64,000 nt of DNA from an uncultured Clostridia bacterium (GTDB lineage Bacteria > Bacillota > Clostridia > Christensenellales > UBA1242). Within the stretch, counting starts at the first letter, position 1; each line of letters starts with the position of its first letter. The translations under genes and the position numbers were made by a program. This document shows positions 13,610-45,611 of the stretch, one piece after another. The stretch lies in the NCBI GenBank assembly GCA_944381185.1, contig CALWKE010000001.1:186001-250000 (forward strand), in the 5' to 3' direction. The notes under the pieces were generated by a model. It had not been told where the DNA came from and made no database searches. It saw nothing but the letters and a program-made list of their open reading frames with translations.

Positions 13610-13885
13610 ATGAACAAAAATGAATTTTTAAGAACTATTGCAGACAAAACAGAGTCTACAATCAAAGATGCTAATGCATTCTATGAAGCATTTGTGTCAA
13701 CCGTTCAAGAAGCTATGAAAGCTGATGACAAAATCACACTTGTTGGCTTTGGCACATTCGTTGCAAGACACAAGGCAGCAAGCGTTCGCCCAAACCCACA
13801 AAAACCAGGCGAAACAATCAAAGTTGCTGCATGCAAAGTTCCAGCTCTTAAGTTCGGAAAAAGCTTCAAAGATTCTATCAACTAA
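13610..13885 (+). CDS. hup: Nucleoid protein HU
   Basis: 91 residues, the usual HU size. Dimeric DNA-bending protein of the nucleoid. The GFGTF turn (about residues 46-50) and the DNA-inserting arm with RPNPQKPGE (about 61-69) are present. A consensus promoter and near-perfect SD suggest high expression. It is monocistronic, closed by a strong terminator. Confidence 0.95.
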   Translation: MNKNEFLRTIADKTESTIKDANAFYEAFVSTVQEAMKADDKITLVGFGTFVARHKAASVRPNPQKPGETIKVAACKVPALKFGKSFKDSIN

Positions 13886-13901
13886 TATTTTGCTTGAAGT
13901 T

Positions 13902-13930
13902 GCCCAACCTTTATGGTTGGGCTTTTATTT
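13902..13930 (+). terminator. Terminator after HU
   Basis: GCCCAACC, loop TTTAT, GGTTGGGC, then TTTTATTTT. Confidence 0.9.
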
Positions 13931-13943
13931 TGCTTCAAAAAAA

Positions 13944-13972
13944 TTGACATAGAATTTTTTATATAATATACT
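13944..13972 (+). promoter_or_regulatory. gatCAB promoter
   Basis: TTGACA (13944-13949), 17 bp, TATACT (13967-13972). The next ATG (13979) is 6 nt downstream, so transcription should begin at or beside it. Confidence 0.75.
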
Positions 13973-13978
13973 TTTCGT

Positions 13979-14029
13979 ATGAAAATATCTTTTTTAAATG
14001 TAAATAATAACAATAATTTTAACTTTTAG
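13979..14029 (+). CDS. Asn-rich leader peptide of the gatCAB operon
   Basis: Sixteen codons reading MKISFLNVNNNNNFNF and then TAG. Seven residues are Asn, five of them consecutive (AAT AAT AAC AAT AAT). There is no SD; the ATG lies 6 nt after the -10 box, so it would be read from a leaderless 5' end. The stop codon is 12 nt before the 5' arm of a hairpin with a U-tract, and gatC follows. This is the anatomy of an amino-acid-operon attenuator: stalling at Asn codons when charged tRNA-Asn is scarce would be expected to raise read-through into gatCAB. Translation of the peptide is inferred, not shown. Confidence 0.6.
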   Translation: MKISFLNVNNNNNFNF

Positions 14030-14041
14030 AGAAGAACTTTG

Positions 14042-14090
14042 CTCTCGTTTTTTGCCGCAGCACCTAAAACGAGAGGTGTTTATTTTTTTT
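14042..14090 (+). terminator. Attenuator hairpin before gatC
   Basis: CTCTCGTTTT (14042-14051) and AAAACGAGAG (14066-14075) form a perfect 10-bp stem with a 14-nt loop, followed by GTG, TTTA and T8. It lies inside the leader, downstream of the only visible promoter, so it can act only by conditional termination. Competing pairings visible: AGAG (14028-14031) with CTCT (14042-14045), and CACCT (14061-14065) with AGGTG (14074-14078). Confidence 0.7.
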
Positions 14091-14104
14091 GTTAAGGAGT
14101 TTTT

Positions 14105-14392
14105 ATGAAAAATATATCAGACAGACAAATTGAACACTTGGCAGAACTTTCTGCACTAAAACTTTCAAGTGACGAAAAAATTAAAATGAAAAATGACCTT
14201 GGGCAAATTTTGGGTTTTGTTGACGAAATTAATAAATGCAACACTGCCGGCGTTAACTATGATGAAACTGAAATAACCTTTGCTGAACTTCGTGAAGACA
14301 AGGTTAAACCGGGACTAAAACAAAAAGAAGCAACAGCAAACGCTCCAAAAACTGAAGATGGATTTTTTGTTGTTACAAAGGTGGTGGACTAA
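14105..14392 (+). CDS. gatC: Asp/Glu-tRNA amidotransferase subunit C
   Basis: 95 residues, the usual GatC length. GatC is the small subunit that wraps around GatA and stabilises the GatCAB complex, which converts Glu-tRNA(Gln) and, where a non-discriminating AspRS exists, Asp-tRNA(Asn) to the amide form. ISDRQIEHLAELSALKLS at the N-terminus is typical. AAGGAG lies 7 nt before the ATG. Its stop overlaps the gatA start by one base (TAATG), indicating coupling. Confidence 0.93.
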   Translation: MKNISDRQIEHLAELSALKLSSDEKIKMKNDLGQILGFVDEINKCNTAGVNYDETEITFAELREDKVKPGLKQKEATANAPKTEDGFFVVTKVVD

Positions 14393-15831
14393 TGGAATTT
14401 GCAAATCTTTCACTTACAGAAATAATTGAACTTATTCAAAATAGAAAAGTAACAGCAACCGAACTTGTTAGTTACTATATTTCTAGAATTCAAAAATTTA
14501 AAGCAAAAAATGCAGTGCTTGAAGTTTTTGACGATGCACTTTTGATTGCAAAAGAAAAAGATGATTTTGCAAAATCAAATAGCACCCTTCCCCTTTTGCA
14601 TGGCATTCCCGTTTTGATTAAAGATAATATTAGTTACAAGGGTCACAGACTCACCTGTGCATCAAAATTTCTTGAAAACTATGTTGCACCATATAACGCA
14701 ACAGTTATTCAAAAACTTATTGATGCTGGTGCAATTATTTTGGGGCGAACTAATATGGACGAATTTGCCATGGGTGGCTCAACCGAAAATAGTGCGTTTG
14801 GCGTTGCAAAAAATGCTCTTGATGACAGCCGTGTTTCAGGTGGGTCATCAGGTGGAAGTGCGTGCGCCACTGCCCTTGGGCTTGCTTGCTTTACACTCGG
14901 AAGTGACACAGGCGGTTCAATTCGTCAGCCATCATCGTTTAATGGTGTTGTTGGCTTAAAGCCAACTTATGGCAGGGTTTCAAGGTATGGCTTGGTTGCC
15001 TTTGCCAGCAGTCTTGACCAAATTGGTCCAATAACAAAAACGGCAGAAGACACCGCCATAGTTATGAATATCATTGCTGGAAATGATGAAAAAGACTTAA
15101 CTTCAAGTCAAATTAATGTGCCTGACTTTACACATAAACTTGGAAACAATATTTCAGGGCTTGTGTTTGGAATTCCAACAGAAATTTTAAACTTAATAAA
15201 AAAGACAAAATATTTTGATAAATATCAAAAATTGTTTAATTACATCAATTCTCAAGGCGGAATTTTGAAAGAAGTCAATATTCCTCACTATGAAATGAGC
15301 CTTCCAGTTTACTATGTTCTTGCACCTGCTGAAGCCGCCAGCAACCTTGGCAGATTTGACGGAATTAAATACACAAAAAGAGATGAAAGTGCTTACAGCA
15401 TTGATGAAATCTATAGTTTTAGCCGAACAAAGTATTTTGGTGAAGAAGTTAAACGCCGAATTATGCTAGGCAACTTCGTTCTTTCAAGTGGATATTATGA
15501 TGCTTATTACATGAAGGCAAAAACTATTAAAAATCTACTTAAAACAGAAGTGACAAAGGCTCTTGATGAATGTGATGTTATTTTGATGCCAACCACTTTT
15601 GGCGAAGCATTTAAAATTGGTGAAAAATCAACTGACCCCGTTTCAATGTATGCAGAAGACATGTTCACAATCTTTGCAAATCTTACCGAACTGCCTTCAA
15701 TAAGCATTCCTTTTGATAAGGGCGTTTCGGGTCTTCCACTTGGTCTTCAAATCTTGGGCAGACATTTTGATGAAGAAACCATTATTTCTGTTGCAGATTA
15801 TTTTCAAAAAAATTATAAGGAGAAGGCATAA
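14392..15831 (+). CDS. gatA: Asp/Glu-tRNA amidotransferase subunit A
   Basis: 479 residues. Amidase-signature subunit that hydrolyses glutamine and supplies ammonia to GatB. The Lys-cisSer-Ser triad is visible: Lys in IPVLIKDN (about residue 77), Ser in SGGSSGGSAC (about 150) and Ser in GSDTGGSIRQP (about 173). Second gene of gatCAB, overlapping gatC and gatB by one base each in TAATG junctions, so expression of the three is tied to the single upstream promoter and attenuator-like leader. Confidence 0.96.
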   Translation: MEFANLSLTEIIELIQNRKVTATELVSYYISRIQKFKAKNAVLEVFDDALLIAKEKDDFAKSNSTLPLLHGIPVLIKDNISYKGHRLTCASKFLENYVAPYNATVIQKLIDAGAIILGRTNMDEFAMGGSTENSAFGVAKNALDDSRVSGGSSGGSACATALGLACFTLGSDTGGSIRQPSSFNGVVGLKPTYGRVSRYGLVAFASSLDQIGPITKTAEDTAIVMNIIAGNDEKDLTSSQINVPDFTHKLGNNISGLVFGIPTEILNLIKKTKYFDKYQKLFNYINSQGGILKEVNIPHYEMSLPVYYVLAPAEAASNLGRFDGIKYTKRDESAYSIDEIYSFSRTKYFGEEVKRRIMLGNFVLSSGYYDAYYMKAKTIKNLLKTEVTKALDECDVILMPTTFGEAFKIGEKSTDPVSMYAEDMFTIFANLTELPSISIPFDKGVSGLPLGLQILGRHFDEETIISVADYFQKNYKEKA

Positions 15832-17255
15832 TGAAAACAGATTATGAAGTTAATATTGGTCTTGAAATTCATGCAGAACTAAAAACTAAAACTAAAATTT
15901 TCTGCTCTTGCAAAAACAGTTTTGGTGACAAGCCAAACACAAATGTTTGCCCTGTTTGCATTGGTCTTCCGGGAACACTTCCCGTAACAAACAAACAAGC
16001 GGTTATTCTTGCCATTCGTGCGGGGCTTGCTCTTGGTTCAAGAATTTCCCCTCACCTGCTATTTGACCGCAAACATTACTTTTATCCAGACCTTCCAAAG
16101 GCCTATCAAATTAGCCAAGACAAACTTCCACTTTGCATTGGTGGCGGGATAAAACTTGATAGCGGAAAATTTGTTAGATTCAATCACATTCATCTAGAAG
16201 AAGATGCCGGAAAACTTATTCACGACACATTTACTGACCAAACATTTATTGATTATAACCGTGGTGGTGTGCCACTTATTGAATGCGTTACCGAAGTTGA
16301 CCTTTCATCTGCTGAAGAAACTGTTGAATTTTTAACAAAATTAAGACAAACTCTTATATTTGCTGATGTTGCAAATTGCAAAATGGAACAGGCAGGCATG
16401 CGTTGTGATGTTAACCTTTCAGTAAAAAAACATGGTAGCAGTGAACTTGGAACAAAAGTTGAAATGAAAAACCTTAACAGTTTTAAGTCAGTTTATGGGG
16501 CAATTAAATATGAGATGAACAGGCAGATTGAAGAACTTGAAAAAGGTGGAAAAATTGTTCAAGAAACAAGAAAGTGGGACGAAACTAAAGAAATAACCAC
16601 TTCAATGCGAAAAAAAGAAGAAAGTAAAGATTATAGGTATATGCCTGAACCTGACTTTATTTCAATCAATATTTCCCCAAAAGATATTGACAAAATAAGA
16701 AATACTCTTCCAATGATGCCGGAAGAAAGGTTTAAAAAATATACAGAAGAATATGGTCTTCCTGAACAAGATGCAAATCTTTTGATATCTGAAAAAGATT
16801 ATTCTGATTATTTTGACAACTGCCTAAAACTCTTCTTTGAACCAAAAACAGTTGCAAACTGGATTATGACCGACCTTTTAAAACTTTTAAAGAGTGCAAA
16901 CTTTAATACACTTGAAGATATTATTAGCGAAGAATATCTTTGCATAATTTTAAAACTTCTTGCAGATAAAAAAATCACCCGTCCCGTTGCAAAGGAACTT
17001 TTTGAAAAAACCATTCAAACAAAAAATAACCCACTAGAAATTGCAAAAACCGAAAAAATGCTATCAACCATTTCTTCTGAACAAATTTGCAAAATTGTAG
17101 ACCAAATTATAGCCGAAAAACCTGAACTTAAATCCGAATACAAAGTTCAGCCAGACAAGATTACAAACTTTATTGTTGGTGGCGTTATGAAACAAACACA
17201 GGGCAAAGCCGATGCAACATTTATCAAAGATTATGTTTCAAAAATCATGAATTAA
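15831..17255 (+). CDS. gatB: Asp/Glu-tRNA amidotransferase subunit B
   Basis: 474 residues. Kinase/transferase subunit that activates the tRNA-bound Asp or Glu and binds the tRNA. EVNIGLEIHAEL at the start, the zinc-type cysteines of FCSCKNSFG and NVCPVC (about residues 24-46), and the C-terminal YqeY-like helical tail (about 330-474) are all present. GGAGAAGG precedes the ATG. An AsnRS gene is also present at 44229, so whether this complex serves Asn, Gln or both is open. Confidence 0.96.
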   Translation: MKTDYEVNIGLEIHAELKTKTKIFCSCKNSFGDKPNTNVCPVCIGLPGTLPVTNKQAVILAIRAGLALGSRISPHLLFDRKHYFYPDLPKAYQISQDKLPLCIGGGIKLDSGKFVRFNHIHLEEDAGKLIHDTFTDQTFIDYNRGGVPLIECVTEVDLSSAEETVEFLTKLRQTLIFADVANCKMEQAGMRCDVNLSVKKHGSSELGTKVEMKNLNSFKSVYGAIKYEMNRQIEELEKGGKIVQETRKWDETKEITTSMRKKEESKDYRYMPEPDFISINISPKDIDKIRNTLPMMPEERFKKYTEEYGLPEQDANLLISEKDYSDYFDNCLKLFFEPKTVANWIMTDLLKLLKSANFNTLEDIISEEYLCIILKLLADKKITRPVAKELFEKTIQTKNNPLEIAKTEKMLSTISSEQICKIVDQIIAEKPELKSEYKVQPDKITNFIVGGVMKQTQGKADATFIKDYVSKIMN

Positions 17256-44230: not shown

Positions 44231-45611
44231 AATATTCACAATTATTTGGCGTTCGTGGAAATAGTTCAACATCACGAATATTGCTCATGCCAGTTACATA
44301 CATAACAAGCCTTTCAAAGCCAATGCCAAAACCTGAATGCTCAACACTGCCATATTTTCGAAGATTCAAATACCACCAATAGTCTTTTTCTTTAAGCCCA
44401 AGTTCATTCATTCGAGTGATGAGTTTGTTATAATCTGTTTCTCTTTGGCTTCCACCAGTAAGTTCTCCAATTCCCGGAACAAGGCAGTCAACTGCAGAAA
44501 CCGTTTTGCCACCTTCATCTTGCTTCATATAAAACGCTTTGATTTCCTTTGGATAATTGGTCACAAACACAGGCCTTTTGAACACAACTTCGCTTAAATA
44601 TTTTTCATGTTCTGTTTGAATGTCTGTTCCCCACTTAACCTTAAATTCAAAATTATCATTATTCTTTTCTAACTCTTTGATTGCATCGGTATATGTTATT
44701 CTTCCAAACTTTGAATTTGCAACTAGTTTTAATCTTTCAATCAAGTCATTATCAATATTTTTGTTGCAAAATTCAAGTTCATCGCTACATTTTTCAAGAA
44801 GATGGTTGATAACATATTTAATCATTTTTTCTTCAAAATCCATAAGCCCGTTAAGGTCACAGAATGCAATTTCAGGTTCCATCATCCAAAACTCGTTTGC
44901 ATGCCTTGTAGTGTTGCTGTTTTCTGCTCTGAATGTTGGACCAAATGTGTAAATTTTGCCAAAGGCAAGTGCAAAGGCCTCGCCTTCAAGTTGCCCCGTT
45001 GGGGTTAAAAATACTTTGCCACCAAAAAGTTCATCTTCTGGCTTTAGGGTTGAATTTGGAGCATAAATATCCTGCGTTGAAACTTTAAAAAGTTCACTTC
45101 CACCCTCACAATCTGACTTTGTTAAAATTGGGGTATGAACATAAATAAAGCCTTCTTCATTCATAAACTTATGAATAGCATAAGCACATTCACTTCTGAT
45201 TCTAAACACTGCACTATAGGTGTTTGTTCGTGGACGAAGATATGCTTGCTCACGCAAAAATTCAAGGGTCATCTTCTTTTTTTGAAGTGGATATTCACTG
45301 TCTGTTGCCGATAAAACTTCAACCGACTTTGCCTGAATTTCAAATGGTTGCCTTGCATCTGGAGTTAAAATAAAAGTCCCTTCACACACAATGCTTGAAC
45401 CTGTGTTTAGTTTTGAAATTTCATCATAGTTATTAAGTTTTTCAGCCTCAATAACAATTTGAACACCTTTAAAAGAACTTCCGTCATTAAGGTCAAGAAA
45501 ACCAAAGGCTTTACCACCGCGAGCACTTTTAACCCAACCCGCAACCTTAATAACTTTGTTTTCATATTCATTAGGATTTTTATATAATTTAACAATATCT
45601 AATTTTTCCAT
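44229..45611 (-). CDS. asnS: Asparaginyl-tRNA synthetase
   Basis: 460 residues from the ATG at 45611 with AGGTG 7 nt upstream. The N-terminal OB-fold (VAGWVKSARGGKAFGFLDL) that reads the anticodon is present, so this is a true AsnRS and not the shorter asparagine synthetase AsnA-like form. The class II core has motif 2 FRAENSNTTRHANEFWMMEPE near 235 and motif 3 GFGIGFERLVMY near 437. TTGTAA-16-TATAAT lies upstream. Its presence bears on the Asn-rich gatCAB leader. Confidence 0.95.
   Translation of the reverse strand: MEKLDIVKLYKNPNEYENKVIKVAGWVKSARGGKAFGFLDLNDGSSFKGVQIVIEAEKLNNYDEISKLNTGSSIVCEGTFILTPDARQPFEIQAKSVEVLSATDSEYPLQKKKMTLEFLREQAYLRPRTNTYSAVFRIRSECAYAIHKFMNEEGFIYVHTPILTKSDCEGGSELFKVSTQDIYAPNSTLKPEDELFGGKVFLTPTGQLEGEAFALAFGKIYTFGPTFRAENSNTTRHANEFWMMEPEIAFCDLNGLMDFEEKMIKYVINHLLEKCSDELEFCNKNIDNDLIERLKLVANSKFGRITYTDAIKELEKNNDNFEFKVKWGTDIQTEHEKYLSEVVFKRPVFVTNYPKEIKAFYMKQDEGGKTVSAVDCLVPGIGELTGGSQRETDYNKLITRMNELGLKEKDYWWYLNLRKYGSVEHSGFGIGFERLVMYVTGMSNIRDVELFPRTPNNCEY

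Follow-up and report, generated by a model that had tools for sequence, protein, structure and literature searches.

In Escherichia coli, ribosome-mediated attenuators of the trp, his, leu and pheST operons are classical. T-box control of tRNA(Asn) charging concerns the same pathway and the same kind of signal as the Asn leaders described here, and Firmicutes-type bacteria are usually regarded as T-box users. Attenuators of trp, trpS and leuS have been predicted in Actinobacteria (PMC1262725), uORFC-8-2 before cysS in Rhodobacterales is a predicted ribosome-mediated attenuator (PMC8632094), and a 2008 T-box survey reports that none precede amidotransferase genes (PMC2494555). The original prediction for the locus studied here placed an Asn-codon attenuator before gatCAB and knew of no ribosome-mediated attenuator described for this operon; this agrees with the open-access literature, in which we found no Asn attenuator of gatCAB; wider searches gave T-box work, attenuators for other amino acids and unrelated papers.

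Here, we analyze a window of 64,000 nucleotides (G000:C1:186001-250000) in a 1.37-Mb assembly of 5 contigs that is 94.67% complete. We conclude that the stretch preceding gatC in this window is very probably a ribosome-mediated attenuator through which the supply of Asn-tRNA(Asn) governs transcription of the gatCAB operon, whose predicted enzyme completes asparagine on its tRNA.

Results

An Asn-rich leader ORF precedes gatCAB

All elements on which the original prediction was built are in the sequence, i.e., TTGACA-17-TATACT, a 16-codon ORF that begins 6 nt later and contains seven Asn codons, five of them in a row, its TAG, a perfect 10-bp stem (14042-14051/14066-14075) that starts 12 nt past this stop, and then gatC with its Shine-Dalgarno (SD) sequence (Table 1). 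The Asn codons are at 13997, 14003-14017 (the five consecutive ones) and 14021. With just 6 nt between the −10 box and the ATG, translation of the window leader probably starts at a leaderless 5' end. A −10-like box 6 to 7 nt 5' of the start codon is present in 8 of the 47 leaders described below, including that of the window, and thus these leaders have no room for an SD sequence. Between 13880 and 14200, two terminators were found while 0.1 were expected from shuffles; the one outside the attenuator, at 13902-13922, sits behind an upstream HU-like gene and directly before the attenuator promoter. Promoter-like sites alone were not enriched (two found versus 1.5 expected in shuffles). No Rfam family matched the window leader, and the T-box (RF00230) was absent at gathering score.

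The upstream gene (window 13610-13922) encodes an HU/IHF-like DNA-binding protein, based on a match below model cut-offs, and the terminator behind it is strong and its own.

Table 1. Features of the gatCAB leader region and related genes in the window
Feature	Position	Strand	Basis
Sigma-70-type promoter, TTGACA-17-TATACT	13944..13972	+	11/12 consensus matches; transcription start putative
Leader ORF MKISFLNVNNNNNFNF, ATG...TAG, 16 codons, 7 Asn codons	13979..14029	+	Sequence; similar leaders in relatives
Predicted antiterminator 5' arm CTCTCGTTTT	14042..14051	+	Sequence and duplex test versus shuffles
Predicted antiterminator 3' arm AAAACGAGAG, within loop and 3' arm of terminator	14066..14075	+	
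Predicted intrinsic terminator hairpin AGCACCT-loop-AGGTGTT, arms 14059-14065/14074-14080	14059..14080	+	Terminator scan
U-tract of terminator TTTATTTTTTTT	14079..14090	+	Sequence
gatC Shine-Dalgarno sequence AAGGAG	14094..14099	+	Sequence
gatC	14105..14392	+	NCBIfam TIGR00135, over cut-off
gatA	14392..15831	+	NCBIfam TIGR00132, over cut-off
gatB	15831..17255	+	NCBIfam TIGR00133, over cut-off
asnS (AsnRS), direct Asn-tRNA route	44232..45599	-	G000:C1:230232-231599, over cut-off

Asn leaders recur in the family and are absent from control sequences

In the family of the window genome (very likely of the order Christensenellales), we found 47 Asn leaders in nine genera that encode 45 different peptides. 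Twenty-eight precede gatC, 17 precede aspS-gatCAB, and two precede an unlinked aspS (in G000, the window genome, and in G006). GatA was found in 133 of the 309 family genomes by searches that are incomplete, G010 having GatB though no GatA match. Of the 145 gatA loci fetched, 141 allowed placement of gatC, 132 of these in the family. An Asn-rich short ORF (at least four Asn in eight codons) lies before gatC in 28 of these 132 stretches, e.g., MFKNNNNNNNFLICK (G034), MIIKANNNDNNNN (G200) and MLFIVNNNNNNNNNALTHI (G277), and none of the 28 fell into the class of loci that lie behind aspS or ligA. The other 104 stretches have no leader before gatC; some have a leader or a T-box before aspS instead. 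None of the nine gatC loci scanned in the order's other families has a leader, which may thus be a trait of this family.

Several lines of evidence bear on the idea that these ORFs are simply Asn-rich frames that arose in AT-rich DNA beside an ordinary terminator. Chance would be favored by the AT-richness of Asn codons and by a GC content of about 32% in the stretches scanned (up to 330 nt before gatC). However, while a stricter count gave 25 ATG-started ORFs of 9 to 30 codons with at least five Asn in eight codons in the 132 family stretches, Asn-rich ORFs numbered zero on the antisense strand of the same stretches, zero in the 433 kb from gatC onward with both strands counted, zero in the 1000 nt upstream of 80 gatA loci of other phyla among the matches listed (these distant loci served as negative controls only) and zero in ten rounds of dinucleotide shuffles. 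With 67 leaders in the family, including those before asnA (see below), and none in any control set, conservation refutes chance, which we regard as extremely improbable. Moreover, the Asn codons are a mixture of AAT and AAC (228:103), with 39 different Asn-codon strings among the 47 leaders, and this mixing implies that the amino acid is conserved and not a DNA repeat. Five consecutive AAY triplets occur at seven sites (11 overlapping matches) in the 1.37-Mb genome; the reversed pattern, as a control, matches 10 times, so the count is not raised and the evidence lies in the placement. At two of the seven sites, the triplets belong to a short ORF that starts with ATG and has a terminator behind it, and these two ORFs precede gatC and an aspS, respectively; the remaining sites lie in longer frames or in short ones that lack an ATG.

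Cys/Asn-rich frames before gatC in G020, G251, G247 and G244 were rejected as leaders; they resemble the tail of a Cys-rich protein.

Leaders also precede aspS and asnA

Scanning of both AspRS loci of the window genome revealed a second leader, MKRFINNNNNNND (complete to its stop codon), before the aspS at C2:274583-276340. This leader has its own terminator and alternative pairing, and a homologue in G006. A leader before this unlinked aspS implies that both predicted pathway enzymes would be raised together. Among 49 loci fetched upstream of operons of the aspS-gatCAB type, one of which is from outside the family (L234), 17 have an Asn leader. For 22 of the 28 gatC leaders, coordinates place an aspS in the same orientation 1.4 to 1.6 kb past gatA, indicating the gene order leader-gatCAB-aspS.

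The presence of asnA in genomes lacking GatCAB prompted a scan upstream of this gene, and 20 of 30 loci have an Asn leader; in this set, L308 comprises only 78 nt of upstream sequence, and three further asnA places yielded no locus. asnA is present in 32 of the 309 family genomes and in none of 45 leader-gatCAB genomes. Strict exclusivity of AsnA and GatCAB, which is true in 80 chosen genomes, fails family-wide: AsnA is present in 5 of 133 GatA genomes versus 27 of 176 without a GatA match (Fisher p 0.001). Based on family models, the leader-controlled genes, i.e., gatCAB, aspS and asnA, serve Asn or its tRNA. By eye, many leaders of aspS-gatCAB and asnA share a recurrent ATGGGTTYCTTT-like arm within or right after the ORF.

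A second short ORF, e.g., MYHIKIINAVAGEVK, with a conserved N-A-(V/L/P/R)-(A/K/W)-G motif encoded by AAYGCCN6GGC, is located downstream of the first terminator and ahead of asnA or aspS at L292-L295, L309-L318, L320 and L323, and at L231, L232, L262, L265 and L284. Of the 30 asnA loci, 16 have the nucleotide pattern, as do 5 of the 47 other leaders in the 170 nt that follow them; on the window plus strand, it has zero matches. At some asnA loci, there is an apparent second terminator 5' of this ORF (by eye).

Predicted terminator and antiterminator hairpins are mutually exclusive

The original prediction proposed aligning leaders of gatC orthologues, and in the relatives both the Asn run and the hairpin recur (28 gatC leaders), with a terminator found by one rule in 46 of 47 leaders overall; G315, in which the rule found none, was excluded from structural counts. 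In the window, the 10-bp stem does not abut the U-tract, because the latter begins 3 nt past the stem. The hairpin that abuts the U-tract is 14059-14065/14074-14080 (CACCT/AGGTG), which has a stem of 11 bp in the close relative G006. The two window hairpins share bases and, therefore, are mutually exclusive. In all 46 terminator-bearing leaders, a pairing partner of the terminator is located after the Asn run. Given the position of CACCT/AGGTG next to the U-tract and the architecture of the relatives, the antiterminator is most likely formed by the 10-bp stem and the terminator by the short CACCT/AGGTG hairpin. Thus, the roles given to the two hairpins in the original prediction are most likely swapped. 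A reading in which the stem at 14042-14075 terminates and weaker upstream pairings act as antiterminator would leave the Asn logic unchanged, and this stem is the most stable pairing of the stretch and is followed by the U-tract after 3 nt; however, it is at odds with the abutting hairpin and with the partner location in the 46 leaders, and we consider it unlikely.

The predicted antiterminator duplex of the window, whose core is the 10-bp stem, has an energy of −16.2 kcal/mol (z −3.27, p 0.0075). Over all leaders, the sequence that follows the Asn run pairs with the terminator better than dinucleotide shuffles do (p≤0.05) in 35 of 46, with a mean z of −3.2, and does not beat them in 11. Own partners pair more strongly than swapped ones (mean −17.8 versus −10.8 kcal/mol), the own partner being among the best three in 21 of 46; because some leaders are near-identical, these pairing tests are not independent trials. 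For the asnA leaders, the alternative pairing has p≤0.05 in 11 of the 18 for which the first terminator was chosen and in 13 of 20 overall; the 13 include G327 and G323, for which the rule chose the second, downstream terminator because the first hairpin is without a U-tract. Pairing of the upstream (SD) stretch with the antiterminator arm has p≤0.05 in only 9 of 46 leaders (mean z −0.89; window p 0.28), a hint for a subset only, to which the window does not belong.

Ribosome-masked folding predicts a switch in some leaders

The features of an attenuator are present in the sequence, i.e., an ORF with an Asn run, a terminator-like hairpin abutting a U-tract, and a second hairpin that excludes the first. 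In the mechanism that we propose, transcription would begin at or beside the leader ATG with a ribosome trailing RNA polymerase. If Asn-tRNA is ample, the ribosome would reach the stop codon, beside the 5' arm of the antiterminator, and the terminator at 14059-14080 would form. If Asn-tRNA is scarce, the ribosome would stall in the Asn run, leaving 14042-14051 free to pair with 14066-14075, and once these are paired, polymerase would read through into gatCAB.

We folded the leaders at equilibrium with the RNA hidden to 12 nt past the first base of the A-site codon, and scored a switch if the terminator probability at the stop exceeded the Asn-run median by more than 0.3. Among 46 leaders, 18 switch as predicted, three are reversed and 25 show no clear change. 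In the aspS leader of the window genome, the terminator probability is 0.00 to 0.06 at the first six codons of the run, 0.96 at the seventh and 0.95 at the stop. In the window gatC leader, it is 0.00 at every Asn codon of the run and at the stop, and reaches 0.77 to 0.97 only with the first 15 to 16 nt past the stop covered, compared to a nominal footprint of ∼10. None of the 20 asnA leaders has the predicted switch. Since many leaders show no switch at equilibrium, the attenuator reading has to invoke folding kinetics; its least secure step is how exactly the window gatC copy would switch.

These data also bear on a trp-like variant with three hairpins, in which AGAG (14028-14031) pairs with CTCT (14042-14045) and, after departure of the ribosome, ties up the antiterminator arm, while a late-stalled ribosome masks this helix. 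In G018, G200 and G220, in which the spacing from stop to arm is similar, the terminator probability is 0.70 to 0.90 when the A site holds an early Asn codon of the run and 0.00 to 0.14 when it holds the last, as the variant predicts, and these leaders have CACAA/TTGTG-like arms past the stop (by eye). The window helix, however, is only 4 bp and is missing from the minimum-energy fold, and for the window we regard the variant as possible but doubtful.

A CACAA/TTGTG-like hairpin located right past the stop overlaps the antiterminator arm in a g12 subgroup (L012, L181, L190, L192 and L208; by eye) and is possibly a trp-type first hairpin.

The leaders that lack an equilibrium switch would also be compatible with hairpins that answer another signal, i.e., a protein or small molecule, with the Asn ORF merely coupling translation. 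However, besides hairpins, the leaders of gatCAB, aspS and asnA have the Asn run in common, their genes all serve Asn or its tRNA, the T-box that substitutes for the leader reads an Asn codon, and the window leader matches nothing in Rfam. We therefore hold a different signal to be very unlikely and favor reading of Asn-tRNA(Asn) by the ribosome.

T-boxes and Asn leaders replace each other

On aspS-gatCAB, T-boxes and Asn leaders replace each other within the family. Among the 48 of 49 aspS-upstream loci that were scanned with Rfam (L284 being outside the scan), 19 have a T-box, 18 of them in the family, and none has both a T-box and an Asn leader. Using a consensus-anchored pattern, the specifier is AAC (Asn) in all 18 family T-boxes and in the one from outside. 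An Rfam scan of 20 mostly standalone gatCAB loci without a leader near gatC found no T-box.

The window genome has two T-boxes over the cut-off, L111 (G000:C2:397527-397743) and L112 (C1:53735-53908), and thus T-box and leader devices coexist there; the specifiers of L111 and L112 are UUC- and GGC-like, i.e., for other amino acids (by eye).

Leader genomes point to a role of GatCAB in Asn synthesis

The original prediction listed the asnS gene as a complication. The gene is indeed present in the window, but leader genomes often have one: among the 42 with leader-gatCAB that were tested, AsnRS is over the cut-off in 21, GlnRS in 20 and both in 13. With both synthetases present, GatCAB is needed for charging neither tRNA in these 13 genomes, and its role there is likely Asn synthesis. 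Such a role has been described for Bdellovibrio (PMC4206432).

The window genome has AsnRS and two AspRS over the cut-off and no GlnRS match, and therefore Gln-tRNA(Gln) has to come from its GatCAB as well, a need to which control by Asn would be blind; leakiness of the attenuator would fit this extra role. With GatCAB, two AspRS and no AsnA match in an assembly that is 94.67% complete, this genome has the set for tRNA-dependent Asn synthesis. AsnB-type matches in 80 genomes were partial only, none extending over more than 119 of 354 positions. At an AspRS position that we take to be the site separating the two AspRS types, 10 of 10 gatCAB-linked AspRS of bacterial type examined have H, as does 4wj3 (labeled Asp/Asn in the PDB). 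The AspRS pair of the window genome has F in the leader-controlled copy and L, like E. coli, in the copy without a leader; G029, whose single AspRS match is accompanied by no AsnRS over the cut-off, also has F. The residue at this position is a hint regarding putative charging of tRNA(Asn) by AspRS.

In G028, which has two gatCAB copies (L009 and L219), one is standalone with an Asn leader, while the other has no leader and an upstream gene with a ligA-like end, which suggests a division of labor for Gln and Asn between the two. G007, G005, G014, G019, G024 and G031 have no GatA or GatB match, no GlnRS over the cut-off and at most one GltX-like match each.

Discussion

The original idea of an Asn-codon attenuator before gatCAB gains strong support from conservation, from the leaders of aspS and asnA and from the Asn T-boxes; its hairpin roles are most likely swapped, and the window copy does not display an equilibrium switch with a normal footprint. 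Altogether, we consider it probable that a family of Christensenellales has its own Asn attenuator regulon over its asparagine routes (GatCAB, a non-discriminating AspRS and AsnA), which swaps with Asn T-boxes on aspS-gatCAB. If so, this would be the first attenuator reading asparagine and the first on indirect aminoacylation, and the molecule sensed would be made by the very enzymes controlled. One operon under either device within one family would represent a natural experiment on the replacement of tRNA sensors, and the balance of direct versus indirect Asn-tRNA synthesis in bacteria would become testable. The regulon predicts that the Asn-serving GatCAB copies are those with an Asn leader or an AAC T-box and not the ligA-linked ones.

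In common with the E. coli attenuators, the window leader has a short ORF in which codons of the controlled amino acid follow one another, a predicted intrinsic terminator and a predicted exclusive antiterminator. The attenuators predicted in Actinobacteria share codon run, terminator and exclusive antiterminator with the Asn leaders, and a term search of that paper gave no asn, asparag or gat (PMC1262725). The Asn leaders differ from the classical and the actinobacterial attenuators in the amino acid, which is Asn, and in the genes, which are those for the amidotransferase, its AspRS and AsnA, and 8 of 47 differ in being without room for an SD sequence. uORFC-8-2 is similar in that a tRNA-charging gene is predicted to be controlled and the uORF has codons for the cognate amino acid, and different in that it concerns Cys, direct aminoacylation and alpha-proteobacteria (PMC8632094). 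The RNA of a T-box binds uncharged tRNA directly and without a leader peptide, whereas the Asn leaders would use a leader peptide. Judged on sequence comparisons, the Asn-reading ribosome-mediated attenuator is most likely real and conserved, and would be a variation on the familiar leader-peptide control to which Asn and gatCAB are new.
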